A stretch of DNA of 64,000 bases from Pararhizobium sp. IMCC21322 (GTDB taxonomy: Bacteria > Pseudomonadota > Alphaproteobacteria > Rhizobiales > GCA-2746425): contig NZ_CP132335.1 of NCBI RefSeq assembly GCF_030758295.1, forward strand, positions 2,456,412-2,520,411, read 5' to 3'. Shown here piece after piece: positions 4,938 through 40,191 of the stretch (positions are counted from its first letter, which is position 1; the number at the start of each line of letters is the position of its first letter). The position numbers were made by a program, and so were the translations under genes. Below the pieces are notes generated by a model. That model did not search any database, was not told where the DNA came from, and saw nothing but the letters and a program-made list of their open reading frames with translations.

Positions 4938-5005
4938 TAAAGCAGCAAAAATGATGCATGTTGAGTGGCGAAGCTTTTGAAATCGAACGATATTCACATA
5001 AATAG

Positions 5006-6049
<1,044 letters not shown>

Positions 6050-6082
6050 AAATACTATATTTTTATTTGATTTTTATGAAAA

Positions 6083-7351
6083 TTATTCTGCAGGTGTAAA
6101 TTTCTTTGCTCGCCCGGATAGTTTGGTTTCGTGGCCCGCACGCGGTATATCCGGGATAAATCTACACAAAATTAGTGAGACGAAAGCCATGGCCGCGCCA
6201 GCCAGAAAAACCGTTGCCGGTGAGACCAGCCAGATCAATCCGAATGAAGCTGGAATCCCGATGGCTGCGATGTGATTTATGGTAAAAGCGACACCAGCTG
6301 AGGGTGCGATTTCCGAAGGGTCTGCAATCTTCTGAAAATAGGTCTTGATGGCAATCGCAAACGCAAAAAACGCGTGGTCGATGACATACAACACCGCAGC
6401 CAGATTGGCGGACGTTACAAAGGCATAAGTAACAAAAACACCGATCAGCCCAACATACTCAAATGTCAGGGCCCGTCTTTCGCCGACAATGCCGATGAGT
6501 TTGCCGACATATCCTGCAAAAGCCATATTTATCAGGCAGTTAACAAGAAATAGACCCGCCACTGCGTGAACTTCATATCCGAATTTTTCGACCATCATGA
6601 AGCTGGCGAATACGGTAAAAATCTGCCGCCTTGCGCCACTCATGAATGTTAAAGCGTAATACAGCCAATAGCGTTTTCTCAGGATTATCTTCTTCTGTTG
6701 TGCAGTTTTTTGAGGAAATGTCGGGAACAGGCGCCACGCCACAATGGTGATAATCAGCGTGATAGCGCCTGCAATCAGAAATGCAGTCTCAAAAGACAGA
6801 GCAAACAACTGCCAACTGGCCAGAATGATCGTGTAGGCCGCCAACTGGGCCCCAGCGCCGATTGCCACCAGACGGCCCATTAAATGCGGTGCCTTCGATA
6901 TGGGGAGCCACTGCAGGGCAAGCGACTGGTTCATTGTCTCGTAATAGTGAAACCCAACCGACATCACAAAAGTGGTTATGTAAAGCCCCAGAACCGTTGG
7001 AAAATAGCCGGTTGCAGCCACGCCAAGCCCAAGCAGCAGCAACGAAAAAATCGCAAATGACTGTTCCCTTATATAAAACACCACATAGATCGCCAGAAAA
7101 GCCAGAAAGCCCGGAATTTCCCGGATCGATTCCTGAAAACCGATTTCCCGACCTGTCATGCCAACGCCGTCTACCGCAAAGTTCTTGATCAGAACCCACC
7201 AGCTTGAAAAGGACAGCCACATCGCAGCCGACATGAGCGCCAGCAAAACAAAAGGACTGCGCAGCCCTGTAAAGGATGCGTAAAAATTGCCATCATCGGC
7301 AGCATGATCTGCTGGTGGAGGGGGAAAGTGGGGATCGAATGGCAGTGTCAT
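6083..7351 (-). CDS. MFS transporter
   Basis: This 422-residue protein has about 12 hydrophobic segments and a proline-rich cytoplasmic N-terminus. The layout is that of a major facilitator permease, with a charged central loop around residues 215-230 (KTAQQKKIILRKR). The substrate cannot be read from the sequence. It is divergent from the AraC-type regulator at 7523, with a 171-base gap that could hold a shared control region. It ends 34 bases from the end of the ferredoxin reductase gene (tail to tail). The C-terminal tail is lysine-rich and probably cytoplasmic. Confidence 0.8.
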   Translation of the reverse strand: MTLPFDPHFPPPPADHAADDGNFYASFTGLRSPFVLLALMSAAMWLSFSSWWVLIKNFAVDGVGMTGREIGFQESIREIPGFLAFLAIYVVFYIREQSFAIFSLLLLGLGVAATGYFPTVLGLYITTFVMSVGFHYYETMNQSLALQWLPISKAPHLMGRLVAIGAGAQLAAYTIILASWQLFALSFETAFLIAGAITLIITIVAWRLFPTFPQKTAQQKKIILRKRYWLYYALTFMSGARRQIFTVFASFMMVEKFGYEVHAVAGLFLVNCLINMAFAGYVGKLIGIVGERRALTFEYVGLIGVFVTYAFVTSANLAAVLYVIDHAFFAFAIAIKTYFQKIADPSEIAPSAGVAFTINHIAAIGIPASFGLIWLVSPATVFLAGAAMAFVSLILCRFIPDIPRAGHETKLSGRAKKFTPAE

Positions 7352-7522
7352 AAATGGTTTTGGCTCCGTGTATGAACTGGCGCGTTAGGAGGTTGAGATT
7401 CATCTGACACGCGGTAGTTGCGCCCAAAGCATTTCTGCTCACGTTTCTGCCTATAACGCGTTGCCGATTTGGTGGGTTAGCGCTATTTTGACAAAAAATA
7501 TCTCTAACACGTCAGGCCGATC

Positions 7523-8329
7523 ATGCTGCATCCAGACATTCTTGCGCGCGCGGATCACGATTTGCCCCGTGCGGCAATCGGGTACGCTTGTGCATGGGAA
7601 AAGGGTACGACAAACGAACCGCATAGCCATTGGCGTGGGCAGCTTATCTATGCGATCTCGGGGTCGTTGAAGGTTATATCAACTGCCGGAACCTGGATAG
7701 TTCCACCGGAACGGGCCGTCTGGATGCCGTCTCATACCGAGCATTCGGTCATGTCCGTAACAGACGCGCATGCGCGCTTTCTCTACCTGGATCCCAAGAC
7801 TTTCAAGGGTTTGCCAAGCATAGTCACCGTGGTTCAAATGACAGCTCTCATGCGCGAATGTTTGTTGTCATTCCTGACGCTGCCTCGCCTTTATGACGAA
7901 GCGGGGAGCGCGTCTCATCTTGTTGCTATCATGGTGGACGAGTTGAGAGTGGTCCCCGTCATGCCTCTGCATTTGCCGCAACCAGCAAGCCCGAAACTCA
8001 AGCGAGCCGCAGATCTGGTTCTCTCTTCCATTTCCACACCACCCAGGCTGGCCTCGCTTGCAGCCGATGCTGGTTTAAGCGTCAGAAGTTTTGAACGCCA
8101 TTTTCAGCGAGAAACCGGGCTCACCTGGCGCAAATGGGTGACGCAGGCGCGTTTGATGGAAGCCATCTCTCAATTGTCCAACGGTGCCAGGGTAGGGGAT
8201 GTTGCCTTTGCATTGGGCTATGAGGGGCCCAGCGCATTTGTCGCCATGTTCAAAAAGGCCACAGGGCATACACCTGGCAAGTATTTTGCCCCGGTTCAGC
8301 CAAGGCAGTATCAGGATCGGGGCGTGTAA
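7523..8329 (+). CDS. AraC-family transcriptional regulator with N-terminal cupin domain
   Basis: This protein has 268 residues. The first part is a cupin-like sensor (PHSHWRGQLIYAISGSL near residues 33-51, then PPERAVWMPSHTEHSV). The last 100 residues are an AraC DNA-binding domain with two helix-turn-helix motifs (LASLAADAGLSVRSFERHF and VGDVAFALGYEGPSAFVAMF). The arrangement is like NimR/YeaM of Escherichia coli, which controls a neighbouring MFS exporter. Here MFS genes lie on both sides: one divergent (6083-7351), one convergent (8311-9564). The divergent one is the more likely target. The last 19 bases overlap the end of the convergent gene. Confidence 0.9.
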   Translation: MLHPDILARADHDLPRAAIGYACAWEKGTTNEPHSHWRGQLIYAISGSLKVISTAGTWIVPPERAVWMPSHTEHSVMSVTDAHARFLYLDPKTFKGLPSIVTVVQMTALMRECLLSFLTLPRLYDEAGSASHLVAIMVDELRVVPVMPLHLPQPASPKLKRAADLVLSSISTPPRLASLAADAGLSVRSFERHFQRETGLTWRKWVTQARLMEAISQLSNGARVGDVAFALGYEGPSAFVAMFKKATGHTPGKYFAPVQPRQYQDRGV

Positions 8330-9564
8330 TCCTCGTTCGTTCTCGGGTCCATTGCAGCAGTTTCCGGCGTGTTCATACGCACCGTTGAACTGGAAACAAA
8401 ATTGCCTTTTTTCTCTTCCTCCACGGCTGCACGTTTCCTCATGCGCCAGGCTGCGAAGCCTGCCATAATTAGATGTGCAAGCAGGGTGGGTGCAAACAGA
8501 AAGTCGGGACCAAGAAGGGCCATCATGCCACCGCCAATCAGAGGGCCCAGGATACTTCCGGCACCAAAAACCAACAGCAATCCCGAGCTGATTTTCAAAA
8601 ATGAATTCTTGTCAGCATGATCATTGGCATGGGCAACAATCACCGGATACATGGCAAAAATCATAGCGCCAAAAATGGCAGCTGTAATCAGGATAACCGT
8701 TACATCTCGCGGCTGCATGATTAAAAAGAAGAGGTCGGCCAAGCCAGCGACCGTGGCAAGTCCGATCAGAACAGCACGTCTGTCTGTGCGGTCTGAAAGC
8801 CAACCGACAGGAAGTTGAAAGAGGGCACCTGTAAGAATTGTGAGGCTCACCATAAGCGCAATCGATGTAACGTCGAGACCGATTTGTTGGCCGTAAACAG
8901 CTGCCAAAGTACCAAAAGAACTATTCGAAAGGCCCACAAGGAAAACCGCGACCACTGCTATTGGCGAGTTCAGCCAAAGACTTTTAATGTCGAGTTTTGG
9001 CCGTACCAGTGGTTGTGGAGCCACTGTGGTCGACAGGGCTGTGGGAAACAACGAGCACGCATAAAAAATGGCGGCCAGAACAAAGAAGAAATATCCGCTA
9101 GAGTCTCCAATAATCAGCAACAACTGGCCGGTCGTGGTCGCCGCCAGATTGACCATGGTGTAAGTTGCAAAAACCCTTCCGCGGAATGACGGGTCTGTGC
9201 GTTCGCTGATCCAGCTTTCCACAATCATCGCGCCGCCAGCAAAGCTGAAACCTGCCAAGGCTCTTAGGGGAATCCAAGCGCCAGGATGAATGATCAGCAA
9301 TGATAACAGAACAGACATAACAGCAACGCCTGCCATCACGCTGAATGATCGCACATGGCCCACACGTGTCACGATACCCGGAACCAGAATACAGCCAAGG
9401 ACGTAACCAACTGCCCAACCGGTGCCGAGCATACCCAGTGAGAATGCAGAGAACCCTTCTGCCGAGCCACGAAGCGGCAGAATTAAGCCATTGATACCGC
9501 CGGCCGCCATCAAAAAAGCGCTGCCAAGGATCAATGCTGAAATGGGGATTATCTGTTTAAACAT
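8311..9564 (-). CDS. MFS transporter, YcaD-like
   Basis: The protein has about 417 residues from the chosen start (MFKQIIPISALILG). An upstream in-frame ATG at 9603 would add 13 residues that do not look like the family's N-terminus. There are 12 hydrophobic segments, a typical MFS loop motif GWLSDRTDRRAVLIG near the middle, and an early motif GTGWAVGYVLGC. The closest family by eye is the YcaD group, uncharacterised permeases common in alphaproteobacteria. The hydrophilic C-terminal tail is unusually long (about 45 residues after the last membrane segment). It is tail-to-tail with the AraC gene, so co-regulation is possible but not shown. Confidence 0.85.
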   Translation of the reverse strand: MFKQIIPISALILGSAFLMAAGGINGLILPLRGSAEGFSAFSLGMLGTGWAVGYVLGCILVPGIVTRVGHVRSFSVMAGVAVMSVLLSLLIIHPGAWIPLRALAGFSFAGGAMIVESWISERTDPSFRGRVFATYTMVNLAATTTGQLLLIIGDSSGYFFFVLAAIFYACSLFPTALSTTVAPQPLVRPKLDIKSLWLNSPIAVVAVFLVGLSNSSFGTLAAVYGQQIGLDVTSIALMVSLTILTGALFQLPVGWLSDRTDRRAVLIGLATVAGLADLFFLIMQPRDVTVILITAAIFGAMIFAMYPVIVAHANDHADKNSFLKISSGLLLVFGAGSILGPLIGGGMMALLGPDFLFAPTLLAHLIMAGFAAWRMRKRAAVEEEKKGNFVSSSTVRMNTPETAAMDPRTNEDYTPRS

Positions 9565-28987: not shown

Positions 28988-29770
28988 ATGCCTGAAGGAC
29001 ATACGATTCACCGCGCCGCCCGCGATCAGCAGCCATTGTTTGCGGGCAGAGAACTGGCCGTTTCATCGCCACAAGGCCGGTTTTTGGAAGGTGCCGAGCA
29101 TCTTGACGGGCAGGTTTGCCAGAACGTGGAAGCGCTTGGAAAACATCTTCTATACGGCTTTGAAAGCGGTGATACGCTTCACATCCATCTGGGTCTTTAT
29201 GGCAAAATCCGGAAGCAGGCACAGCCCATGGCAGAGCCAAAGGGTGCGGTTCGGGTTCGTCTGGAAGCTGCTGAATATGGTGTCGATATCAACGGCCCGA
29301 ATACCTGCAAGATACTTGATCCGGAAGGCAGGGCGGCCTTGTTCAGCCGTATTGGCCCGGATGTGCTGCGCTCTGATGCTGACCCGGATCGTGCTTATGC
29401 CCGCATCGTCAAAAGCCGTTCTCCAATTGGCGTTCTGATCATGAATCAGGAAATCATGGCTGGTATTGGCAATATTTACCGCACGGAAATCCTGTGGCGA
29501 CAGGGCATTCATCCGGACTTGCCAGGTACTGCGCTCACACGGGATGCGTTCAATGCAATCTGGTCAGACAGTTGCGCATTGCTTGAAATCGGTGTGCAGA
29601 AGAACGCCATAATCACGGTTGATGGTGGCACGCGCTCAGGCAAACGCTATGGCGAAAAGGTCAATATTTTCAATCTGGAGACCTGTCCGAAATGCGAGGG
29701 TCCGGTACGCAAATTCGAAATGGCAACGCGCCGCGCCTTCGTCTGCGATACCTGCCAGAAACTGAGCTAG
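28988..29770 (+). CDS. Fpg/Nei-family DNA glycosylase (endonuclease VIII-like)
   Basis: This 260-residue base-excision repair enzyme for oxidised bases begins MPEGHTIHRAA: P2 is the catalytic nucleophile and E3 the proton donor. K52 (GKHLLY) and the HLGLYGK segment are further family landmarks. The N-terminal form resembles the actinobacterial Nei2 group more than the Fpg sequence MPELPEVE. The C-terminal zinc finger is C233, C236, C253, C256. AGGAAAG precedes the ATG. Its last four bases overlap the end of the convergent AEC carrier gene. Confidence 0.92.
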   Translation: MPEGHTIHRAARDQQPLFAGRELAVSSPQGRFLEGAEHLDGQVCQNVEALGKHLLYGFESGDTLHIHLGLYGKIRKQAQPMAEPKGAVRVRLEAAEYGVDINGPNTCKILDPEGRAALFSRIGPDVLRSDADPDRAYARIVKSRSPIGVLIMNQEIMAGIGNIYRTEILWRQGIHPDLPGTALTRDAFNAIWSDSCALLEIGVQKNAIITVDGGTRSGKRYGEKVNIFNLETCPKCEGPVRKFEMATRRAFVCDTCQKLS

Positions 29771-30699
29771 GTCAACAGGAAAAGCAGCAGTGTAATGGTA
29801 AACACGGCAGCGACTGTCGATAGCAAGATGGCCGCAGAACTGCGTCGGGCCATCACACCATAGTGCTCTGCCATAACATAGACATTCTGCGCCACCGGCA
29901 TGGCCGCAATGATGGTTCCCATGGTCACGATACTTGCTGGCAGGCCAAGCAAATAGAGCGTGAGGGCCATGACGAGCGGGTGGACTACCAATTTCAGAAA
30001 AGTCATACTGATAACTGGCGTCAAATTCTCCCCGACGCTGCGCTGTGACAGCGACATGCCCAGTGCAAACAGGGCCGCTGGGGCTGCAGCACCGCCCAGA
30101 AAATTGCTGAAGGTGCCAGCGGCTCCTGGCAGTCCTATGCCGCTGGCAGACAGTGCCACCCCAACCATGATTGCCACTGCGAACGGATTGCGGATGGCGC
30201 CGATCAGGGCGCGCTTCACGGCAGCACCGTGCGTTCCTCCGCCCGCAGATTCAATTATCATGATCGAGAGCGGTATCATCACCATCAGATCAATAATCAG
30301 GGCCGCTGCAGACAAGCGCACACCTTCCGGCCCGAAAGTGGCACCGACAATCGGGATGGCCAGAAAGCCAATATTTGCGATTGAGGATCCCTGACCAAAC
30401 AACGCCATTTCCTGACGGGTTGCCTTAAAGAAGCTCCTGGCAAACAACATGCCTAATACAAACAGGATCAAGGCGGCGGCCAGCCAACCGCCAAGAAAGC
30501 GCCAGTCCAAAATGGCGGCAATATCCTGTCGCGCCAAAGCTCCGATAACGAGGGCGGGCATAGCAAAATAGAAAACAAACACATTGATCGAGCCCGCGCT
30601 TTTCGGGTCGATCATATTCGTTCGCCCGGCAGCGTAGCCGAGGGCAACAACGGCAAAAAACGGTAGCGTGAGTTCCAGAATATTGAGGAAGTTAATCAT
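29767..30699 (-). CDS. AEC-family transporter (auxin efflux carrier type)
   Basis: This 310-residue protein has about ten membrane segments in the AEC two-repeat layout (LPFFAVVALGYAAGRTNMID at the start, DPKSAGSINVFVFYFAMPALVIGALA next). AEC carriers in bacteria move small organic acids such as malonate or malate. Its start overlaps the stop of the ABM-domain gene by four bases (ATGA), and that gene lies 15 bases behind the TRAP large permease, so it is probably the last gene of the TRAP transcript. Confidence 0.88.
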   Translation of the reverse strand: MINFLNILELTLPFFAVVALGYAAGRTNMIDPKSAGSINVFVFYFAMPALVIGALARQDIAAILDWRFLGGWLAAALILFVLGMLFARSFFKATRQEMALFGQGSSIANIGFLAIPIVGATFGPEGVRLSAAALIIDLMVMIPLSIMIIESAGGGTHGAAVKRALIGAIRNPFAVAIMVGVALSASGIGLPGAAGTFSNFLGGAAAPAALFALGMSLSQRSVGENLTPVISMTFLKLVVHPLVMALTLYLLGLPASIVTMGTIIAAMPVAQNVYVMAEHYGVMARRSSAAILLSTVAAVFTITLLLFLLT

Positions 30700-30992
30700 G
30701 TTTCCGGGGCAACACGATGATACAGTCTGATGGTTTTCTCATCCACCATTGCTTCTGTTTCAGCCGCAAATTTCAGGAAGTGATCCGAGGAAAGATGAGC
30801 ATCAAAATCTGACGGAGCACGATAGACTTCATAGAGGAAGTAGCATGTCGGATCATCTGGATCCGCCGCCACATCGAACTGAAGACAATTGGGCTCGTTG
30901 GCCAGAGAATTACGCGCCTGCACGACCAGACGCTGAGCAAAAGCCGACGCCTGATCCGGCTTTGCTTTCCATAGTACTGTCACGACAAACAT
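30696..30992 (-). CDS. ABM-domain protein (antibiotic biosynthesis monooxygenase / LsrG fold)
   Basis: This 98-residue single-domain protein has the dimeric alpha-beta barrel pattern MFVVTVLWKAKPDQ at the start, NEPNCLQFDVAADPDDPTCYFLYEVYR in the middle and SSDHFLKF near the end. The family includes small quinol monooxygenases and LsrG, which isomerises a phosphorylated keto compound in AI-2 breakdown. Its place between TRAP permease and AEC carrier genes ties it to the same substrate. The reaction cannot be told from sequence; an isomerase or a detoxifying oxygenase role is inference. Confidence 0.85.
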   Translation of the reverse strand: MFVVTVLWKAKPDQASAFAQRLVVQARNSLANEPNCLQFDVAADPDDPTCYFLYEVYRAPSDFDAHLSSDHFLKFAAETEAMVDEKTIRLYHRVAPET

Positions 30993-31007
30993 CGGGCATG
31001 ACCTTCA

Positions 31008-32471
31008 TTAATCGAGGAGGAGCCTTGGCAGCCAAAGGGCCAGCTCGGGAAACAGCATGACCAAAGACAGACCGGTCAATTGCAGTATCACAAAGGGAAT
31101 AATCCCCGCATAAATATGCTGAATCTTGATCTCTGGAGGCGCAACCGCTTTCAGATAGAACAAGGCAAAGCCGAATGGCGGTGTCAGGAACGATGTCTGC
31201 AGATTGATCGCCATGAGGATGGCAAACCAGTAAACGGTATCGATTGCAGCCACGTGGTCGCCAAAGTCGAGATTTGCAATAATGGGTGCAAAAACCGGCA
31301 GCACAATAAGGGTGATTTCAATCCAGTCGAAAAAGAAGCCCAATATGAACACCAGCACCATCAGTGCAAACAGGATGCCCCAAGATCCCAGTCCCCAACT
31401 GTCAAAAATATGGATGACAACTTCCTCGCCGCCAATCTGACGGAAGACATAGGAAAACAGGGTCGCACCAATGAAAATACCAAAGATCATTGCATTGGTC
31501 AGAGCTGAGCGCATGACCACATCTTTGAAGATGCGCCAGAACCGACCCAAAAGGCCTTCGCCTTCCTTGAAATTGTCGTCTTCCAGCTTTGCTTGTCCTT
31601 CAAACTCCATATCCGGAATTTTGAGCGCTGGCAGCAGGATCAGGTTGAAAATGGCCAGAAGTATTGCGCCGAAGGCACCGACAGAGGCGGCCTCAGTCGG
31701 AGTGGCAAAGCCGCCAAGAATGGAACCCAGAACCATGATGATCAGAATAACAGGCGGGACAAATGACCGGATGATCATACCGATATATCCGGTCATGGTT
31801 TCAGGGCCGATATTGCCCTGTGGCTTTGGCGCCAGGGTCGGATTAATGGAGCAGCGGATAACGATGTAAATCAGATAGAAGCAGGCCAGCATGAAGCCAG
31901 GGATGATCGCAGCGACAAACAGATTGCCCACAGATTTACTGAGCAGATCGGCCATGATCACAAGCATAATGGAGGGCGGAATCAGAATGCCGAGCGTACC
32001 GGATGCCGCTACTGTTCCAGATGCAAGCGCAGGTGAGTAGTTTCGCTCCATCATGACCGGCAGGGCCAGAAGTGACATCATGATAACCGATGCACCGATA
32101 ATGCCCGTCGTCGCCGCCAGAATGGTGCCCATAATCACCACAGATAGCGCAAGACCGCCCGGCACACGGCGCAAAATGACTTGCAGGCAATTCAAGAGAT
32201 CGCGCGCAATGCCGGATTTTTCCAGCATGGTCCCCATAAATATGAACATGGGAATGGCGGTCAGGATTAAATTCGTCGAGATACTGCCATAAACCCGGGC
32301 AGGGATGGCGTTGAATTGTGGCCAGTCAAACAGCCATGGATCAACTTGTATTGCGATGAAGGCAAAGCTCAGGCCAACACCGCCCAAAACAAAGGCAACG
32401 GGAAAGCCCGAAAACAGGAAAACCGCAAGGGCTGCAAACATCAGCAGCGGAAGTGCTTCAGCAAGGGTCAT
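31008..32471 (-). CDS. dctM: TRAP transporter large permease subunit (DctM-like)
   Basis: This 487-residue membrane protein with roughly 12-14 hydrophobic segments is the ion-coupled channel of a tripartite ATP-independent periplasmic transporter. Recognisable parts are FSGFPVAFVLGGVGLSFA near the start, GASVIMMSLLALPVMMERNYSPALASGTVAASGTLG, and the ending FLTPPFGFALFYLKAVAP. It is longer than the usual 425-440 residues because of a charged insertion near 270-310 (EFEGQAKLEDDNFKEGEG), a trait of the larger TRAP subgroup. Start and stop codons of dctM and dctQ overlap by one base. Confidence 0.94.
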   Translation of the reverse strand: MTLAEALPLLMFAALAVFLFSGFPVAFVLGGVGLSFAFIAIQVDPWLFDWPQFNAIPARVYGSISTNLILTAIPMFIFMGTMLEKSGIARDLLNCLQVILRRVPGGLALSVVIMGTILAATTGIIGASVIMMSLLALPVMMERNYSPALASGTVAASGTLGILIPPSIMLVIMADLLSKSVGNLFVAAIIPGFMLACFYLIYIVIRCSINPTLAPKPQGNIGPETMTGYIGMIIRSFVPPVILIIMVLGSILGGFATPTEAASVGAFGAILLAIFNLILLPALKIPDMEFEGQAKLEDDNFKEGEGLLGRFWRIFKDVVMRSALTNAMIFGIFIGATLFSYVFRQIGGEEVVIHIFDSWGLGSWGILFALMVLVFILGFFFDWIEITLIVLPVFAPIIANLDFGDHVAAIDTVYWFAILMAINLQTSFLTPPFGFALFYLKAVAPPEIKIQHIYAGIIPFVILQLTGLSLVMLFPELALWLPRLLLD

Positions 32472-33040
32472 CAGTGACCGCCTCCCAACACGCGCGCTTC
32501 GTTTTCAGTACTCAAATTGCCAAGCAGGCCGTCGATCGCTTTCAGAAATTGCGAAACCCCTGCGAACAGCAAAAGACCGAACATCATTACCAGTGTCGAT
32601 TTAAGGAGCCAGATATTGGTAAGCCCGACTGTGGAGGGCGATACCTCGCCATCTACAAAGGATTTTACAGCATAGGTGTAGCAGTAAATCGTTCCGATAT
32701 AGGCAAAGGGAATGAGGAAGATAAGTAGTCCGAAAATCTCCATGGCATATTGGACTTTCCGAGGCATGATATCCCTCAAAAGGTCAATCCGAACATGGAC
32801 CTGCTTCGTCAGCCCGTAACCCATCACCAGCGCAAACAGAATGCCATGTGCCCAGTATTCTGATTCCTGAACCATTGTGGAATTCAGTCCGGCAAATTTG
32901 GGAATGCTGAAATAGCGGGTCAACACGTCGTACATGGTAATTGCGATCAGAGCGACCATTGCAACAGCGCCGATGCGCGCTGCCCATGCCAACACCCAGT
33001 CCAAGGTATTGTAGATGGGGGAAAGGGCTGTTTTGTTCAT
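32471..33040 (-). CDS. dctQ: TRAP transporter small permease subunit (DctQ-like)
   Basis: This 189-residue protein with four membrane segments (about 12-38, 60-80, 97-120, 145-165) shows the family segment VRIDLLRDIMPRKVQYAMEI. DctQ joins DctM in the membrane. It lies between dctP and dctM in the common P-Q-M order on the minus strand. The gap to dctP holds a stem-loop that may lower expression of the two permease genes relative to the binding protein. Confidence 0.93.
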   Translation of the reverse strand: MNKTALSPIYNTLDWVLAWAARIGAVAMVALIAITMYDVLTRYFSIPKFAGLNSTMVQESEYWAHGILFALVMGYGLTKQVHVRIDLLRDIMPRKVQYAMEIFGLLIFLIPFAYIGTIYCYTYAVKSFVDGEVSPSTVGLTNIWLLKSTLVMMFGLLLFAGVSQFLKAIDGLLGNLSTENEARVLGGGH

Positions 33041-33133
33041 ATGAATTGCCGATCAGAAGAATGGGCTGCAATATTGGAGTGTTGGCTGAAAATAGACGCT
33101 CGAATTAAGTCGAAACCCTAAAGAAGCAAAGAA

Positions 33134-33155
33134 ACCGCGCCATTTCTGGCGCGGT
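33134..33155 (-). terminator. Stem-loop between dctP and dctQ
   Basis: ACCGCGCCA (33134-33142) pairs perfectly with TGGCGCGGT (33147-33155) around four bases. Read on the minus strand it is followed by TTCTTT. Such partial terminators after the binding-protein gene are common in transport operons and keep the periplasmic protein in excess. Confidence 0.65.
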
Positions 33156-33178
33156 CTTTTATACGTTTTGCGCGGACC

Positions 33179-34225
33179 TTATTTCAGATACGCGTTTTCT
33201 TTCCAGACATTGTATCCAGTCTGAAATTCTTGCAAAGCAGCCCATGCTTCAGCGAAAATTTCAGATTCAGCTTTCAGCTCTTCCACAACAATGCCCCAGT
33301 TTTCTTCGTAAACTGCCAATTGTTCGGCATTCCAGTTACGAATGTTGACGCCTTTTTCATCACGCAGACGCGTAAGAGCAGCACCGTTAATGGCTTCACC
33401 TTCAGTCAGCATGTTGGTGTAGGTCGCACGACAGGCTGTCCGGATTGTCAGACGCTGATTATCGGTCATGCCATTCCAGGTATCAAGATTGATCAACAGA
33501 TCCTGCAATGTGGACTGCTGATGCCAGCCAGGGAAGTAGTTGAATTTTGCAAGCTGATAGAAACCGGCAGCTTCATCCACAACAGGCATGGAATACTCAG
33601 TCGCATCAATTGTACCGCGCTCAAGAGCTGGGTAGATTTCGCCACCTGGCAGCAACTGGGTGTCTACGCCAAGCTTCTGCATGACCCGTGCACCAAGACC
33701 AAAGAAGCGCATTTTCATGCCCTTCATATCATCAAGAGACTTGATTTCCTGACGGAACCAGCCGGATGTTTCTGGTGGTGAAACACCACAGATTTCAGAA
33801 TGCACATTGAATGTGTTGTAAAGTTTTTCATTCATCAGTTCCTGGCCGCCGCCATAGAACATCCATGCGCCATATTCGCCGGCACCTGGTCCAAATGGGA
33901 TGGCTGAGAACATGGCAAATGCGATGTCCTTGGAGGTGTGATAGCCTGGGTTTGACCAAGCTGCATCAGCAGTACCATTGCCAACAGCGTCCAGAACTTC
34001 AAACGCGGGCACAAGGGCACCTGGCTCAAAGAAACGCATTTCAATGTCGCCACCGGAAATGGCCGTTACCGTTTTCGTGAGCTCTACACCAGCAGAACCA
34101 ATCAAAGGTTGTGAAGATGGATAGGACGAAGCGACTTTCATACGTACTTTTTCCGCCATGGCGGGTGCAGCCATCAGGCCGATTGCACTGACAGTCGCCA
34201 ATGCGATTTTCGTGAACTTTTTCAT
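33179..34225 (-). CDS. dctP: TRAP transporter substrate-binding protein (DctP-like)
   Basis: This 348-residue periplasmic protein has a signal peptide ending in PAMA (cut after residue 24). The body is of the DctP family: RMKVASSYPSSQPLIGSAGVEL at the start, then PFGPGAGEYGAWMFYGGG and KGMKMRFFGLGARVMQKLG, which resembles the branch that binds 2-oxo and hydroxy acids. The ligand is not deducible, but the divergent acid-sugar genes suggest a tetronate or similar acid. AGGAGG lies upstream of the ATG. Confidence 0.94.
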   Translation of the reverse strand: MKKFTKIALATVSAIGLMAAPAMAEKVRMKVASSYPSSQPLIGSAGVELTKTVTAISGGDIEMRFFEPGALVPAFEVLDAVGNGTADAAWSNPGYHTSKDIAFAMFSAIPFGPGAGEYGAWMFYGGGQELMNEKLYNTFNVHSEICGVSPPETSGWFRQEIKSLDDMKGMKMRFFGLGARVMQKLGVDTQLLPGGEIYPALERGTIDATEYSMPVVDEAAGFYQLAKFNYFPGWHQQSTLQDLLINLDTWNGMTDNQRLTIRTACRATYTNMLTEGEAINGAALTRLRDEKGVNIRNWNAEQLAVYEENWGIVVEELKAESEIFAEAWAALQEFQTGYNVWKENAYLK

Positions 34226-34605
34226 ATAGTCCTCCCAGACTTTTGTGGTGGTCGATTAACACCGCGTCTTAAGCGACGCTGATATGTGTTGAGTTTTGAT
34301 ACCAGAGTTTTCAATTATCTGCTGAGTTATTCATATTACGCAATAGATGTGACGTCTATTCGTACAATGTATAAGCCGAATTTCTCCTCCGACATTCGAT
34401 GGGTGCTGCGTTGATTTTACGATTTCGACCTGCTTGCATCAACGCATTAATTAATGTATGCATTAAATTACAGCAACGTCAATACCCGAGTGCAAGTGAA
34501 CCAAATTGCCGTTAGATTGTGATGCGAGACGTCATTACGTAAGTATCCATGACAGTTTTACCGGCTCTGGAATGCACACGTGGATCAAACATATGGGAGA
34601 GTGAA
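34226..34605. promoter_or_regulatory. Divergent control region between TRAP genes and the acid-sugar operon
   Basis: This 380-base gap lies between two divergent operons that probably share a substrate. It contains a cluster of palindromes at 34445-34466 that is the best candidate for the GntR operator. The ATG at 34549 lies inside this gap and would lengthen the dehydrogenase by 19 residues, but it has no ribosome site. No other gene was seen. Confidence 0.55.
34445..34466. promoter_or_regulatory. Overlapping palindromes, candidate GntR operator
   Basis: CATTAATTAATG at 34445-34456 is a perfect 12-base palindrome. It overlaps a second inverted repeat, TTAATG (34451-34456) and CATTAA (34461-34466) around TATG. 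FadR/VanR-type GntR regulators bind such short AT-rich palindromes, and a gene of that type lies in the downstream operon. Binding is inferred, not shown. Confidence 0.5.
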
Positions 34606-35742
34606 TTGGGTCAAAAGCCGAAGGTCTATGCAATCACGGTTTTCGATGGTGACGGGATTGGTCCTGAGATCATGGCACCAACGCTGAAGTTGCTGCAACG
34701 TGTCGCGAGTCTTTTCGGTTCATTCTCCTTTGACTTTAAGCACGTGCCGGCAGGGGCAGGACATTTCCGGGATACGGGCGAAGCGTTGCCCAAAGCCTCT
34801 ATAGATGCAGCGCGCGCTGCTGATGCAGTCTTGTTGTCCGCAATGGGGCTGCCATCTATCCGAAAGCCCGACGGTACCGAGATTACACCGCAGATTGATT
34901 TGCGTTTTGAGTTGGAGCTTTACGCTGGTGTCAGACCCGTCCGGGTTTATCCCGGGCAATCCACGCCCCTTGCTGATCCACGCGCGGAACAGATTGACTT
35001 TGTTCTCATTCGCGAATCCACCGAAGGTCTGTTCGCCCACATGCATGAGGGGCAGATTCACGGCGATCAGGAGGCGACAGAAACACTGCGTATTACCCGT
35101 CCGGTGTGTGAAAAGCTGTTTGATTTTGCCTTTCGGTTGGCACAGCAGCGAGCAATCAAATTTGATCGCACAGCACGTGTGACATGTGTCGACAAAGCCA
35201 ATGTGTTCCGTGCCTTCTGGTTCTTCCGCTCGATTTTCATGGAACGTGCAAAGGCATTCCCCGAAATCGAGGCTGATACGGCCTATGTCGATGCTCTGGC
35301 CATGTGGATGGTTCAAAAGCCTTGGGAATTTGATGTTCTGGTCACCGAAAATATGTTTGGTGACATTTTGTCCGATCTGGGTGCCGGAATCATGGGCACA
35401 CTCGGACTGGCGCCTTCTGCTGATATTGGAGATGACGCCGCTGTTTTCCAACCGTGTCACGGCAGCGCGCCAGATATTGCAGGCAAGGGCATAGCAAATC
35501 CACTGGCAATGATCCTGTCAGCAGCGATGATGCTGGAATGGTTGGCCGTTGAGCATGAGGATCAGGATTTGGCGAAGGCGGCGCGCATAATAGACGAAGC
35601 TGTTGGTGAAAATGTTGTGGCACAGCGTCATCTGACCGGTGATCTGGGCGGTGCAGCCAACACGATCGAATGTGCGGCGTCCGTGATCGCGAACATCGAA
35701 AAACGGGCAGCATCAAACGGTGTTTCCGATAAGGTGGCTTGA
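34606..35742 (+). CDS. Isocitrate/isopropylmalate dehydrogenase-family enzyme
   Basis: This protein has 378 residues from the TTG at 34606, which has a strong GGGAGAG site; an ATG at 34549 is the longer alternative without one. Family marks are FDGDGIGPE near residue 14-21, FVLIRESTEG, the catalytic lysine-region VDKANVFR, and the metal-binding aspartates in ENMFGDILSDLGAG. The family oxidises hydroxyls beta to a carboxylate (isocitrate, isopropylmalate, tartrate, D-malate; PdxA is a distant relative). First in the acid-sugar operon, it could oxidise C3 of a tetronate. That substrate is inference. Confidence 0.85.
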   Translation: MGQKPKVYAITVFDGDGIGPEIMAPTLKLLQRVASLFGSFSFDFKHVPAGAGHFRDTGEALPKASIDAARAADAVLLSAMGLPSIRKPDGTEITPQIDLRFELELYAGVRPVRVYPGQSTPLADPRAEQIDFVLIRESTEGLFAHMHEGQIHGDQEATETLRITRPVCEKLFDFAFRLAQQRAIKFDRTARVTCVDKANVFRAFWFFRSIFMERAKAFPEIEADTAYVDALAMWMVQKPWEFDVLVTENMFGDILSDLGAGIMGTLGLAPSADIGDDAAVFQPCHGSAPDIAGKGIANPLAMILSAAMMLEWLAVEHEDQDLAKAARIIDEAVGENVVAQRHLTGDLGGAANTIECAASVIANIEKRAASNGVSDKVA

Positions 35743-35745
35743 CCC

Positions 35746-36795
35746 ATGGCAATGCCTGCTTTGCGTGTCGGGATGGTGGGATATGGCTATTTTGCGGAAT
35801 TCCACCTGAATGCCTGGGAGCGATTGACTGGAGCGTCTTTGCAGGCACTGGCAGATCCCAGCGCTGAACGAAGATCTGCAGCGTTGAAGGTCGCGCCGCA
35901 GATTGACGTATTTGAGAGCGTAGAGGACATGCTCTCGTCCGGTGAATTCGATATTCTGGATATTGCCACGCCGTCGGCCACGCATCTCGATTTGATCCGC
36001 CCTATGCTGGGGCGTGTGCGAGCCGTGATTTGCCAAAAACCGTTTTGCGAAAATCTGGCTGAAGCTCAGGAACTTGCATCCTTGAGTGACAGCAGCTCGA
36101 CACTGTTGGTGGTTCATGAAAATTTTCGGTTTCAACCTTGGTACCGGGAGATCAGCAACATCCTCGCAGATGGACGGTTGGGCCGCGTCGTCCAGGCCCA
36201 ATTCAGATTGAGGCCAGGCGATGGCGCGGCCGACGACGCCTACCTGGATCGTCAGCCCTATTTCAGAGACATGAAGCAATTTCTAATCCGTGAAACAGGC
36301 GTTCACTGGATTGATGTCTTTCGCTTTCTGTTTGGAGAGCCGGTTGCTGTGAGCGCAGATCTGTTTCGGACAAATCCCGTCATTGCCGGCGAAGACAGCG
36401 GCACCTTCACATTCCAGATGGCGGATGGTGCACGCATTGGTTTCGATGGCAACAGAACGCTGGACCATGTGGCACAGAACAGACGGCTGACGATGGGTGA
36501 ATTTCTGATTGAGGGAAGCCAGGCCAGTTTGCGGCTCTCTGGCGACGGCGCGATCGAGTTGCGCAATTTTGGTGAAAATCATTGGCAAACTCACGCATAT
36601 TCTTTTGAGGACAGGGACTTTGGCGGCGATTGTGTCTACCATCTGCAACATCATGTCGTGGCGCATTTGCGAGCGGGAAAAACACTTGAAAACACCGCCA
36701 CAAACTACCTGAAAAACCTTGAAATCCAGACCTTGGTTTACCGGGCTTCAGATGAAGGCGTAAGATTGTCGCTGGATGAGGGAGACATCAGTTAG
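35746..36795 (+). CDS. Gfo/Idh/MocA-family oxidoreductase
   Basis: This 349-residue NAD(P)-dependent dehydrogenase has the Rossmann motif GYGYFA (residues 12-17) and a KPF variant of the usual EKP motif (ICQKPFCENLAEA, near 97). The conserved histidine region RETGVHWIDVFRFLFGEP lies near 181-198. Substrates in the family are sugars, inositols and related polyols or their acids. It starts three bases after the dehydrogenase stop and its own stop overlaps the GntR start by one base, so it is tightly coupled in the operon. Confidence 0.9.
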   Translation: MAMPALRVGMVGYGYFAEFHLNAWERLTGASLQALADPSAERRSAALKVAPQIDVFESVEDMLSSGEFDILDIATPSATHLDLIRPMLGRVRAVICQKPFCENLAEAQELASLSDSSSTLLVVHENFRFQPWYREISNILADGRLGRVVQAQFRLRPGDGAADDAYLDRQPYFRDMKQFLIRETGVHWIDVFRFLFGEPVAVSADLFRTNPVIAGEDSGTFTFQMADGARIGFDGNRTLDHVAQNRRLTMGEFLIEGSQASLRLSGDGAIELRNFGENHWQTHAYSFEDRDFGGDCVYHLQHHVVAHLRAGKTLENTATNYLKNLEIQTLVYRASDEGVRLSLDEGDIS

Positions 36796-37472
36796 TGGCA
36801 GGCTCTGCACGAAAAACCGACACACGCACGCAACAGGCCTATCAAACGCTGAAAGGCCTGATTATGGATAATGCGCTCAAACCCTCGGCGTCTTATCTGG
36901 AAACGGAACTTGCCGAGATGTTGGGGATGAGCCGCACACCGGTGCGCGAGGCGACGCTTCAGCTCGAAAGCGAAGGGTTTTTGAGCATCAGGCCGAGGCA
37001 CGGCATAACGATCCTGCCAATTTCGATAGAAGACATGCAGGACATTTACGATCTTTTGACCGAACTGGAGCCATATGCCGCCGAAAAGGTTGCGCGTGAT
37101 GGGCTTAGCGAACACGGTCATAGTCTTTTGATGTCTCACGTAAGCGCTATGGATGCGGCGCTGCAGGCAAATGATCTGATTGCCTGGGCCTATGCAGATG
37201 AGGCTTTTCACATGGATTTGGTGCGTCTTGCAGGAAATGCTCGCTTGTCAAAAGTGGTCGCGACGTTCTGGGATCAGGTTCACCGCGCCCGTATGGCCAC
37301 TTTGACACTGCGGCCAAAGCCTATGCGGTCCAACGAAGATCACAGACGATTGGTGAGTTTTGTACAGTCGGGGGACTGGCAGGCCGCGCGGAACCTCCAC
37401 CGCGACCATCGGAAAAATGCAAAGACCATGCTGGTTGATCTGATCACACATCACAATTTGAATCACCTCTAG
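36795..37472 (+). CDS. GntR-family transcriptional regulator (FCD domain)
   Basis: This 225-residue protein starts with GTG overlapping the previous stop (TAGTG). The N-terminal winged helix includes LAEMLGMSRTPVREATLQLESEGFLSIRPRHGI (about 42-74). The C-terminal FCD domain (ILPISIEDMQDIYDLLTELEPYAAEK, and HMDLVRLAGN later) binds small carboxylic acids, often with a metal. It is the obvious local regulator of the acid-sugar operon and perhaps the divergent TRAP genes, presumably a repressor released by the substrate. Confidence 0.92.
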   Translation: MAGSARKTDTRTQQAYQTLKGLIMDNALKPSASYLETELAEMLGMSRTPVREATLQLESEGFLSIRPRHGITILPISIEDMQDIYDLLTELEPYAAEKVARDGLSEHGHSLLMSHVSAMDAALQANDLIAWAYADEAFHMDLVRLAGNARLSKVVATFWDQVHRARMATLTLRPKPMRSNEDHRRLVSFVQSGDWQAARNLHRDHRKNAKTMLVDLITHHNLNHL

Positions 37473-37481
37473 GAGTTTAAT

Positions 37482-38285
37482 GTGAGTGATATTTGGGACG
37501 TTTTTGCGCTGAAATATGCTGAACGCAACACAAGAACGCGCGCAGATTCCTTTCTGGCAGACCCCCATCACGATCTGCCGCACGCTATGGATTATTTTGT
37601 ATGGGTGCTGCGTCAGGGATCAAAGACCATCGTGGTGGATACCGGGTACGATACAGAGGAGGGGCAGGCCAGAAACCGTAAAATCCAGATCAATCCGGCA
37701 GATAAGCTGCGGCAGTTTGGTGTTGATCCCGATACGGTTGACACGGTCATCATCACCCACCTGCATTATGACCATGCTGGCTGCCTGACGGCTTTTCCCA
37801 AAGCCAAGCTTCACGTTCAAGCCATTGAAATGGCTTATGCGACGGGGCCTTGCATGTGCCACGATCATTTGCGCGCGCCTTTCACAGGAGAGCATGTCTG
37901 CGACATGGTGCGGGCATTGTTTGCGGGCCGGGTCCAGTTTTCATCGGGCAGCGCAAGCATAGCAGACGGCGTTGAAACTCATCTCATTGGTGGGCACAGC
38001 AGGGGGCTGCAATGCGTGCGTGTCAAAACCGCGCGTGGCTGGGTTGTTCTGGCCTCTGATGCAAGCCACTATTTCGAGAATTACCGTCGTGAGAAACCCT
38101 TTCCCATTGTTGTAAATGTTGAAGACATGCTGACTGGCTTTCGCACACTTAAAAAGCTTGCCGAAAGTGACGACCACATCATTCCCGGTCATGATCCGAT
38201 TGTTCGATCCATCTACGAGCCTGTCTTCTCCGGTGATGACAGCATTGTTGCCCTGCATGTACCGCCCAAAGGCAAAGTATTATGA
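37482..38285 (+). CDS. Metallo-beta-lactamase-fold hydrolase, N-acyl-homoserine-lactonase-like
   Basis: This 267-residue protein uses a GTG start behind CTAGGAG. The zinc motif is H93-x-H95-x-D97-H98 (THLHYDHAG), with further ligands likely at H172 (IGGHSRG), D193 (ASDASH) and a late PGHDP. The sequence belongs to the AttM/AiiA-like branch, which opens lactones including 4-pyridoxolactone. In this operon the simplest role is opening a sugar-acid lactone to feed the pathway; quorum quenching is less likely given the context. The last four bases overlap the kinase start. Confidence 0.88.
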   Translation: MSDIWDVFALKYAERNTRTRADSFLADPHHDLPHAMDYFVWVLRQGSKTIVVDTGYDTEEGQARNRKIQINPADKLRQFGVDPDTVDTVIITHLHYDHAGCLTAFPKAKLHVQAIEMAYATGPCMCHDHLRAPFTGEHVCDMVRALFAGRVQFSSGSASIADGVETHLIGGHSRGLQCVRVKTARGWVVLASDASHYFENYRREKPFPIVVNVEDMLTGFRTLKKLAESDDHIIPGHDPIVRSIYEPVFSGDDSIVALHVPPKGKVL

Positions 38286-39553
38286 GCCAAAAGAAAGTGA
38301 TACTGGGCGCTGTCGCCGACGATTTTACAGGTGCAACGGATCTTGCAGCTCTGATGGCGCGCGCCGGCCTGTCGGTATCGCTACGCATTGGTATTCCAGA
38401 ACCGGGAACAGTTTCTGATGCGGATTGTGAGGTTGTGGCCCTTAAAATCAGAACTGAACCGGTTGATGAGGCTGTTGCCGAGGCGTTGAAGGCTTTGGTC
38501 TGGCTTCAGGAGATAGGCGCAGGGACATTCTTCTGGAAATACTGCTCGACGTTCGATTCCACGGCAAAAGGCAATATCGGTCCGGTCGCGGAGGCTATCA
38601 TGCGGCAATTGGGCTGTAATCAGACCGTGTATTGTCCGTCGTTCCCGGAAAACGGGCGCACGGTGTTTCAGGGGCATATGTTTGTTGGCGAAGAATTGTT
38701 GAGCGACAGTCCCATGCGCGCTCACCCCCTGACCCCAATGACAGATTCCAATCTGCTGCGTCTGTTGAATCCGCAAGTAACCAAGCCTGTTGGTCTGGTG
38801 AACCGCAAAACGATATCTGGCGGCGTTAAAGCAGTTCAGTCCAGACTGGCGGAGCTTGATGCTGAAGGCATCTCACATATTGTTCTGGATGCGATCAATG
38901 ATGAGGACCTTTCAATTCTGGGACCAGCCATAGCGCCCATGAAGTTCATCACAGGCGGAAGTGCGATTGCGCTGCCGCTGGTTCGGGCACTTTCAGGCAT
39001 TGGCAATGATGACCGCGCTGCTCTGGAAACCCCAAACACGACAAACGCACCATTGGTCCTAAGCGGCAGTTGCTCTGCAATGACACAGAAACAAGTGGCG
39101 CGATTTGCCAGCGGCCATCCTTCTCTCAAATTGGAGCCGCTGGAACTGGCGCTCGGAGGTTGCGCGTTGGAGAAGGCAAAAAACTGGTTGGAGTCTCAAC
39201 CGGTCAACGCACCAAAACTGATATATGCGACGGCTGATCCGGATGCGGTGAAACAGGCTCAATCTACTTTGGGCCGGGACCGGGCCGGGCAGGTGGTAGA
39301 AGATGCGCTGGCAGAACTCGCCCAATTTGCCTTGCAGATCGGCCATCGTCGTTTTGTGGTGGCGGGAGGCGAAAGCTCTGGTGCAGTCACAAAAGCCCTG
39401 GCCGTTGAGCAATTGAAAATAGGTCAGGAAATAGCGCCGGGCGTGCCCTGGACCTATACCAGAAGCGGCGCTTTCGATATTGCACTTGCCTTGAAATCGG
39501 GAAACTTTGGTGACGAAAATTTCTTTCAACACGCACTGGAATGTCTGCAATGA
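38282..39553 (+). CDS. otnK: Four-carbon acid sugar kinase family protein (OtnK-like)
   Basis: This 423-residue kinase of the former DUF1537 family has the N-terminal motif VADDFTGATD (11-20) for the acid substrate and a C-terminal nucleotide-binding segment VAGGESSGAV near 360-369. Characterised members phosphorylate O4 of 3-oxo-tetronates (OtnK) or tetronates (DtnK). The neighbouring OtnC-like gene, overlapping by four bases, favours OtnK: its product would be 3-oxo-tetronate 4-phosphate. The start overlaps the previous gene (ATGA). Confidence 0.88.
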   Translation: MSQKKVILGAVADDFTGATDLAALMARAGLSVSLRIGIPEPGTVSDADCEVVALKIRTEPVDEAVAEALKALVWLQEIGAGTFFWKYCSTFDSTAKGNIGPVAEAIMRQLGCNQTVYCPSFPENGRTVFQGHMFVGEELLSDSPMRAHPLTPMTDSNLLRLLNPQVTKPVGLVNRKTISGGVKAVQSRLAELDAEGISHIVLDAINDEDLSILGPAIAPMKFITGGSAIALPLVRALSGIGNDDRAALETPNTTNAPLVLSGSCSAMTQKQVARFASGHPSLKLEPLELALGGCALEKAKNWLESQPVNAPKLIYATADPDAVKQAQSTLGRDRAGQVVEDALAELAQFALQIGHRRFVVAGGESSGAVTKALAVEQLKIGQEIAPGVPWTYTRSGAFDIALALKSGNFGDENFFQHALECLQ

Positions 39554-40191
39554 GCAGTGAAACAAAACAACGGGACGAAATGGTGCTGCTGGCACGGTCC
39601 CTTTTTGAGCGCGGCTTAACCCCCGGTTCGAGCGGAAACCTGTCCTGTCGTCTGGAAGATGGCGGGTTTCTGATGACGCCAACAAACTCCAGCTTTGGGT
39701 TTCTTGAGCCAGAGACTTTGTCGAAGCTGGATGATGATGGACATCATGTGGCAGGCGACAAACCCACCAAGGAAGATTTTCTGCATCTGGCCATGTATCA
39801 CGGGCGGCCCGAGACCAAAGCCGTCACCCACCTTCATTCCACTTACTGCGTCTGTTTGTCCTGCATGAAGGATACCGACGATACCAACATGCTGCCGCCA
39901 GCAACCCCTTATGTTCATATGCGCGTTGGTCCGATCGCTGCCGCTCCTTACAAAAGGCCGGGAGACCGATCCCTCGGACCGGAAATTCAGAAGCTTGCCA
40001 AAAATCATTCCGGAATTATCATCCGCAACCACGGACCTGTTGTGGCTGCCAAATCCATACGAGACAGCGTTTTCGCCATGGAGGAGTTGGAAGAAGCAGC
40101 CCGCATTTTTCTGCTGACACGTGGCATCGATCTCAATTTGCTGACAGATAGTGATCTGGCAGAACTGGATGCCATGAAACTCGGTCGGTAG
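39550..40191 (+). CDS. otnC: Class II aldolase-family decarboxylase (OtnC-like)
   Basis: From the ATG at 39550, which overlaps the kinase stop (ATGA), the protein has 213 residues. Metal ligands are H94 and H96 (THLHSTY) and H161 (IRNHGPVV), with the phosphate loop GLTPGSSGNLSCR and TPTNSSFG near the N-terminus. In the described tetronate pathways OtnC decarboxylates 3-oxo-tetronate 4-phosphate to dihydroxyacetone phosphate and CO2. It is the last gene of the operon. Other class II aldolases of similar length (fuculose phosphate aldolase) are possible, but the kinase neighbour supports OtnC. Confidence 0.87.
   Translation: MSSETKQRDEMVLLARSLFERGLTPGSSGNLSCRLEDGGFLMTPTNSSFGFLEPETLSKLDDDGHHVAGDKPTKEDFLHLAMYHGRPETKAVTHLHSTYCVCLSCMKDTDDTNMLPPATPYVHMRVGPIAAAPYKRPGDRSLGPEIQKLAKNHSGIIIRNHGPVVAAKSIRDSVFAMEELEEAARIFLLTRGIDLNLLTDSDLAELDAMKLGR

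Follow-up and report, generated by a model that had tools for sequence, protein, structure and literature searches.

An OtnI-free arrangement around OtnK and OtnC in Pararhizobium sp. IMCC21322, with an isopropylmalate dehydrogenase-like enzyme as a possible sugar-acid 3-dehydrogenase

How might OtnK and OtnC be supplied with a 3-oxo acid at a locus that has no gene for the isomerase OtnI? This question is raised by a gene cluster in a 64,000-nucleotide stretch of DNA from Pararhizobium sp. IMCC21322, the whole of which we call the window. In the cluster, a tightly packed operon of six genes on the plus strand encodes, in order, an enzyme like isopropylmalate dehydrogenase (IPMDH), a Gfo/Idh/MocA oxidoreductase (Gfo), a GntR-type regulator, a protein of the metallo-beta-lactamase (MBL) fold, OtnK and OtnC. 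We think there is about an even chance that the cluster handles a four-carbon sugar acid, its lactone or its parent sugar without the need for OtnI, and that C3 would be oxidized directly.

The four-step pathway of L-threonate and D-erythronate reportedly goes back to Zhang et al. 2016. As set out in parts of PMC12540250 and PMC10580937, it consists of LtnD or DenD, OtnI, OtnK and OtnC, and is represented in E. coli by ygbJKLM. The window shares with this pathway the kinase and decarboxylase families, and presumably the product dihydroxyacetone phosphate (DHAP). OtnK (38282-39553, plus strand), a 3-oxo-tetronate 4-kinase, reached 530 bits with model NF043035 (cut-off 350), and OtnC (39541-40191, plus strand) reached 279 bits with NF043034 (cut-off 250), so that the identities given to both in an earlier note on this DNA are confirmed by curated NCBIfam cut-offs. 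OtnC belongs to the Aldolase_II type, PF00596 being its only match. Two other names for the kinase were rejected, namely the D-threonate kinase DtnK (129 bits, cut-off 450) and the 3-oxo-isoapionate kinase OiaK, the score for which was far under the cut-off. Unlike the four-step pathway, the cluster has no OtnI, as the earlier note had stated; tblastn found none within 8.5 kb of OtnC. The source genome also has no LtnD above the cut-off (best 183 bits, cut-off 350). The IPMDH-like dehydrogenase, the Gfo enzyme, a protein of the ABM fold and the MBL-fold hydrolase are present instead.

To survey relatives of the dehydrogenase, we used the best 80 of 584 from genome contigs, 22 plasmid records (8 of them examined) and 199 genomes of the order. 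The neighborhoods of OtnC were then scanned by tblastn over 8.5 kb per side, or less on short contigs. The set consisted of 76 controls (74 of the order, and L046 and L047), the window with five loci of the order possessing the dehydrogenase, and 12 others; L057 was excluded because OtnC was not found there. One locus, L291, was first a control and was reassigned because its dehydrogenase lies just beyond the scanned stretch, which changed the counts from 0/18 and 50/75 to 0/19 and 50/74. That is, OtnI was present in none of the 19 OtnC loci with a dehydrogenase possessing Phe at the catalytic-tyrosine position (Phe type), and in 50 of the 74 loci without it (Fisher 2.8e-8, uncorrected for kinship). 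The 19 loci are the window, L043, L052, L053, L054, L055, L056, L060, L063, L071, L073, L130, L133, L168, L170, L181, L182, L257 and L291. In the order sample alone, before L291 was reassigned, the values were 0/7 with the dehydrogenase and 50/75 without it (p = 9e-4). We conclude that OtnK and OtnC do recur in a layout that lacks OtnI and includes a dehydrogenase from a distinctive clade. We therefore regard a bypass of the isomerase step, as the earlier note had proposed, as well supported: OtnI was absent from all 19 loci with the dehydrogenase and from 24 of the 74 without it, and two cluster-bearing genomes, G087 (100% complete) and G203 (Amylibacter marinus), showed no match to OtnI or its relative Hyi (hydroxypyruvate isomerase) at E <= 1e-20.

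Some of the OtnI-free controls are not clear-cut. L238, a contig of 5 kb, carries OtnK-OtnC-ABM together with Gfo, MBL and GntR genes, and a dehydrogenase gene could lie off its end. In G009, G016 and G091, whose OtnC loci also count among these controls, the dehydrogenase genes lie about 13-24 kb away. Relatives belonging to PF00180 (E <= 1e-5) were found in 3 of the 76 controls, namely L257, which is of the Phe type and has no OtnI, L245 and L295. The relatives in L245 (8623-9534) and L295 (4682-5755), both from G025, are 35-40% identical, of the Tyr type, and have OtnI and OtnC nearby; both scored less than the 250 bits that the neighborhood scan required. It may be that pathway layouts differ between the Tyr and the Phe type.

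The association was also seen at the level of whole genomes. Among the 199 genomes of the order, 27 had a match to the dehydrogenase at E <= 1e-110, from which 20 stretches were fetched. OtnC was above the cut-off in 81 of the 199. Of these 81, 21 belong to the 27 dehydrogenase-bearing genomes and 60 to the remaining 172 (Fisher 3.5e-5, uncorrected for genome size or kinship); at least two of the 172 (G019 and G020) hold a 54% relative that falls under the E-value line. In an OtnC tree of 94 rows, the 19 dehydrogenase-linked OtnCs did not form one clade, and 10 label changes, at least 8 of them forced by supported branches, were required. These changes indicate that the pairing of the dehydrogenase with OtnC arose or was exchanged repeatedly.

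The dehydrogenase gene (34549-35742, plus strand, PF00180) has an uncertain start codon, and conservation among congeners starts at about residue 22. By alignment, the enzyme retains Arg119, Arg129, Arg155, Lys216, Asp248, Asp272 and Asp276, which match the arginine triad, the lysine and the metal aspartates of IPMDH. The position of the catalytic tyrosine is occupied by Phe162 (codon 35032-35034). To go by the title of their 2009 paper, Aktas and Cook reportedly regard the Lys-Tyr pair as the acid-base machinery of the superfamily. The roles of the active-site residues of the IPMDH family are partly given in PMC8468904 and PMC12200840, and quantum mechanics/molecular mechanics work is said, in a portion of PMC6505628, to confirm the catalytic role of the tyrosine. 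A portion of PMC12200840 states that the Y139D mutant of isocitrate dehydrogenase (IDH) 1 still reduces 2-oxoglutarate, a hydride-transfer reaction. Thus, loss of the tyrosine need not abolish hydride transfer.

The enzyme therefore resembles the beta-decarboxylating dehydrogenases (IPMDH, IDH, and the homoisocitrate and tartrate enzymes) in its PF00180 domain, arginine triad, catalytic lysine and metal aspartates, and differs from them in having Phe in place of the tyrosine of the Lys-Tyr pair. It also differs in its scores: it matched 16 NCBIfam models (isopropylmalate, homoisocitrate, tartrate and isocitrate dehydrogenases) and reached the equivalog cut-off of none. The nearest of these were the homoisocitrate, isopropylmalate and tartrate dehydrogenase models. 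A FastTree tree of 114 rows placed the 61 Phe rows (the window included and identical rows merged) in one clade (SH 95), whereas the remaining 53 rows (45 outgroup and 8 near) all possessed Tyr. Public records mostly label the clade only 'isocitrate/isopropylmalate dehydrogenase family'. A structure model of the enzyme, made from 6 sequences, had a mean predicted local distance difference test (pLDDT) value of 66, with the active-site loop below 50, and was not used. As far as alignment can tell, Phe162 together with the retained residues suggests oxidation with impaired decarboxylation or protonation, which would give the 3-oxo substrate of OtnK. The direct formation of a 3-oxo acid, which the earlier note had suggested, is thus partly supported, in that it would fit the conserved arginines and the lost tyrosine.

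The proposed route can be considered as follows. The acid would enter via a TRAP transporter, the MBL-fold protein probably opens a lactone, and the Gfo enzyme may oxidize a sugar or an epimer that feeds in. In the IPMDH-like enzyme, the C1 carboxylate would be bound by the arginine triad and the C3 hydroxyl by a metal ion, and oxidation at C3 would use NAD+. Because the catalytic tyrosine is phenylalanine, a beta-keto acid would be expected to be released with the usual decarboxylation and protonation left unfinished. This 3-oxo-tetronate would then be converted by OtnK and OtnC to DHAP, and the ABM protein probably assists keto-enol chemistry at C2/C3, for example on a tautomer or a C2 epimer. 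For the clade as a whole, we propose tentatively, as an idea a little more apt to fail than to hold, that the Tyr-to-Phe enzymes are non-decarboxylating beta-hydroxyacid (sugar-acid 3-) dehydrogenases which have repeatedly displaced a 2-dehydrogenase and OtnI before OtnK-OtnC, with an LsrG-type ABM protein as partner.

Several observations weigh against direct C3 oxidation by this enzyme. Known superfamily relatives use malate-like diacids, and no non-decarboxylating member of the superfamily was found in this analysis. The congeners G002 and G003 have a dehydrogenase-Gfo-GntR-MBL and TRAP-ABM cluster without OtnK or OtnC (L042 and L041), and carry OtnK-OtnC-OtnI elsewhere in the genome (L046 and L047); the link of the dehydrogenase with OtnK/OtnC is thus frequent and not obligatory. 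On a Marinovum plasmid and two rhizobial plasmids, the dehydrogenase is accompanied by ABM, with no OtnK-OtnC pair annotated nearby, and the Phe-clade loci of the Bradyrhizobium type lie among ABC-transporter genes without OtnK or OtnC. These loci indicate that not every member of the clade need use a tetronate; the product of the dehydrogenase may reach OtnK and OtnC in trans, or other acids may be substrates of the clade. Moreover, OtnI was searched for in 18 genomes, 15 of which carry one of the 19 loci, and 8 of these 15 (G037, G144, G199, G200, G201, G202, G204 and G205) hold elsewhere an OtnI-clade gene, that is, one falling in the tree with the OtnC-adjacent OtnIs or with E. coli OtnI. 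To judge from the tree, OtnI may be supplied in trans in those eight. Finally, the ABM protein tracks the absence of OtnI nearly as well as the dehydrogenase does.

The last point leads to the main rival explanation, in which the ABM protein (30696-30992, minus strand, PF03992) replaces OtnI. That is, a 2-dehydrogenase, Gfo here and LtnD in L071, would make a 2-oxo acid, which ABM would convert to the 3-oxo acid, and the IPMDH-like enzyme would do something else, such as act on another stereoisomer. Of the 19 dehydrogenase-OtnC loci, 17 have an ABM gene beside them, as against none of the 50 with OtnI; in the window it sits 9.1 kb from OtnC. Among the neighbors of 61 Phe-type genes (the window excluded, one contig counted twice as L050 and L166, and several on short contigs), ABM was found 26 times, Gfo 26, OtnC 17 and OtnI once, the single OtnI being in L066, a 5.9 kb contig showing no OtnK or OtnC. 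In contrast, ABM, Gfo and OtnC were near none of the 8 near Tyr-type relatives. A profile of 13 ABM homologues matched the LsrG structures 3qmq (4e-13) and 2gff (1.5e-12), and YgiN only at 1e-3; its best structure match was 3f44, an unassigned 'putative monooxygenase'. The alignment places the E, FDV, YE.Y and paired H positions of LsrG, the AI-2 phosphate isomerase, in the ABM protein, which thus shares with LsrG its fold and conserved polar positions. The ABM protein differs from LsrG in its linkage to sugar-acid genes in place of lsr genes and in its score, which is 33 bits against the cut-off of 135 of the LsrG equivalog NF007791. The earlier suggestion that ABM is an alternative isomerase candidate has therefore gained support from its distribution and its resemblance to LsrG, and two loci without OtnI beside OtnC also fit it: L248 has ABM, OtnK and OtnC with no Phe-clade dehydrogenase in the fetched stretches, and in L071 an LtnD reading frame lies alongside ABM and the dehydrogenase. 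However, L043 and L257 have dehydrogenase-OtnK-OtnC and no ABM in the fetched stretches, and a Gfo enzyme with tetronate 2-dehydrogenase activity was not found in this analysis. Together with the low LsrG score, these points make replacement of OtnI by ABM, to our mind, unlikely, though a serious competitor.

Next, it is conceivable that the substrate of the dehydrogenase is a branched or tartrate-like diacid resembling malate, which it decarboxylates, that OtnK and OtnC use another product, and that Phe only tunes specificity. The malate-site arginines, the lysine and the aspartates are all kept, the nearest models are those of diacid enzymes, as described above, and the congeners keep the cluster without OtnK/OtnC. 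Nevertheless, none of these equivalog cut-offs is passed, the Tyr-to-Phe change is fixed across the clade, and the gene is repeatedly paired with 3-oxo-acid enzymes. We consider this explanation quite improbable.

The whole-genome searches bear on another rival explanation, in which the ordinary pathway is merely scattered, with an isomerase supplied in trans (in the source genome, by a Hyi-like gene) along with some 2-dehydrogenase. The source genome (G000) is 100% complete in a single contig of 5.25 Mb, and its only OtnK and its only OtnC above the cut-offs both lie within the window. OtnI and Hyi are homologous and perform similar ketol isomerizations, which can be counted in favor of such a supply. 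A single gene of this genome, G000:C1:2367218-2367982, about 127 kb from otnK, was above the OtnI cut-off; it passes both models, with 374 bits for Hyi (cut-off 353) and 369 bits for OtnI (cut-off 325), so that the raw score favors Hyi and the margin over the cut-off favors OtnI. In a tree of 73 rows, the gene clustered with E. coli Hyi (support 99/96) in a clade of 7 rows containing none of the 50 OtnC-adjacent OtnIs. For comparison, the OtnC-adjacent OtnIs of the congeners G002 and G003 gave 287 and 279 bits for OtnI against 249 and 249 for Hyi, under both cut-offs. The neighbors of the gene, judged by inspection, resemble MOFRL kinase, xylulokinase, xylose isomerase and Gfo genes. Thus, an otnI homologue elsewhere in the genome, a possibility raised in the earlier note, does exist by score, but it resembles Hyi and has apparent xylose genes around it. 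G004 holds a close relative of it in a similar neighborhood, whereas G001 has a relative (312 bits) and yet no OtnC.

In the 18 genomes, an OtnI/Hyi match at E <= 1e-20 was obtained in 16 and one above the cut-off in 5 (G000, G004, G038, G205 and G206). By the tree, four of the 15 cluster-bearing genomes (G000, G004, G038 and G206) have Hyi-clade genes only, two (G087 and G203) have none, and G207 has only a distant OtnI match of 135 bits. LtnD was above the cut-off in 7 of the 13 genomes searched for it, and no match at E <= 1e-60 was found in the other six (G000, G087, G144, G200, G203 and G207). G087 and G203, which have OtnK-OtnC with the dehydrogenase, therefore show neither OtnI/Hyi nor LtnD at the thresholds used; DenD was not searched for. 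A scattered ordinary pathway, favored by the score of the Hyi-like gene, its counterpart in G004 and the eight genomes with OtnI-clade genes, is the most doubtful of the explanations in view of the higher Hyi score and the grouping of that gene, the situation in G001, G087 and G203, and the lack of LtnD above the cut-off in the source genome.

Direct C3 oxidation by the IPMDH-like enzyme can also be compared with two other known routes. A three-step bypass employing 2-OtnK and 2-OtnC was reportedly described by Guo in 2024. As described in PMC12540250, its decarboxylase is of the F_bP_aldolase type and acts after phosphorylation of the 2-oxo acid. Both this route and the window omit OtnI, but the window was ruled out as an example, since its OtnC is of the Aldolase_II type and its OtnK fits the 3-oxo-tetronate kinase model. 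The D-threonate pathway uses DtnK and PdxA2, and is alike in that a distant superfamily member oxidizes the hydroxyl beta to the carboxylate. It is unlike the window, where the kinase is OtnK and not DtnK, the dehydrogenase matches PF00180 only, and a separate decarboxylase is present. No description of an IPMDH-type enzyme joined to a tetronate pathway was found among the open-access literature matches listed, which is weak evidence of novelty.

With regard to regulation, the GntR-FCD transcription factor (36795-37472, plus strand, PF00392 and PF07729) is presumed, from the operator association described below, to control both the operon and a divergent minus-strand TRAP transcript. A near-palindrome, TTAATGTATGCATTAA (34451-34466, no strand), lies in the intergenic region between the two, and is the only site of the window matching the pattern at up to 3 mismatches, on both strands. 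In a shuffle control, 5 of 100 shuffles reached an equal match number, which makes the site weak evidence on its own. An exact copy of the 11-mer core was present in 19 of 317 loci (about 10 different genomes once nested copies were removed), all with the dehydrogenase; in L071 the copy is not immediately upstream of it. With at most 1 mismatch, the core lay no more than 330 bases upstream of where the conserved part of the dehydrogenase starts at 17 of the 35 places where GntR is nearby and at 2 of the 33 where it is not (one contig and one locus being counted twice), against a background of 1.1% of random stretches. We therefore regard TTAATGTATGCATTAA as a candidate GntR operator joining both transcripts.

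The remaining genes of the operon encode the Gfo enzyme (35746-36795, plus strand, PF01408 and PF22725), which reaches no equivalog cut-off, and the MBL-fold hydrolase (37482-38285, plus strand, PF00753), a possible aldonolactonase. The latter is far under the cut-offs of the N-acyl homoserine lactone lactonase equivalogs AiiA, AttM, AidB, AhlS and YtnP (best 64 bits, cut-off 360). A second MBL-fold gene was observed in L041 of G003 (6146-6892); it stands in place of OtnK-OtnC, between the first MBL gene and Lrp/PutA-like genes that look like the window's neighbors there.

The TRAP transcript encodes, in order, the substrate-binding protein DctP (33179-34225, PF03480), the small permease DctQ (32471-33040), the large permease DctM (31008-32471), the ABM protein and, as its last gene, a permease of the auxin efflux carrier family (AEC; 29767-30699, PF03547), all on the minus strand. 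DctQ is assigned by position and by its identity of 95% and 84% with its counterparts in the congener loci L041 and L042, and DctM by PF06808 and TIGR00786, the latter barely above the cut-off. Overlaps are of 4 bases for MBL/OtnK, 13 for OtnK/OtnC and 4 for ABM/AEC permease. All gene positions of the earlier note are borne out; the AEC permease, which is retained in L041 and L042, had been omitted there. In a phmmer search against the PDB, the nearest solved structures to DctP were 2hzk, deposited as SmoM, and the ketoacid-binding 7ug8. DctP was dropped as a clue to the substrate: other loci carry another DctP type, TctABC or ABC transporters, and since the transporter type differs, the substrate is not fixed by DctP.

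Variant layouts were also observed. In the Rhizobiaceae version (L133 and L060), a sugar ABC transporter, SDR, GntR, the dehydrogenase, ABM, HAD type II and aldehyde dehydrogenase genes accompany OtnK and OtnC, which suggests a sugar, not an acid, as the entering compound. In L181 (G144:C1:1225500-1244500), TctABC-OtnK-OtnC-ABM is flanked by two different Phe-type dehydrogenases. In L175 (G091) and L178 (G016), a Phe-type dehydrogenase adjoins an OtnK relative, with OtnC about 16-24 kb off on the same contig. L071 combines its ABM, LtnD frame and dehydrogenase with no OtnI beside them. L248 (G088:C28:423500-440500) has, at 4671-8700, GntR, ABM, a gene judged by inspection to be an HpcH/HpaI-like aldolase, OtnK and OtnC in series, with a TRAP transporter near, and is perhaps another OtnI-free route. 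The Bradyrhizobium-type subgroup (L062, L065, L069, L072, L176, L177 and L180) possesses DNTE instead of DGTE and lies among ABC transporter and CaiB-like CoA-transferase genes.

If direct C3 oxidation by the Phe-type dehydrogenase is true, the clade would acquire a testable activity, and sugar-acid catabolism would have a second natural way around the OtnI step. The enzyme would also be a case in which the mechanism of oxidative decarboxylation is naturally uncoupled at a single residue. L-threonate is, according to a part of PMC12540250, a major degradation product of plant ascorbate. It is a likely example of the substrate, and the cluster could mark the turnover of L-threonate.

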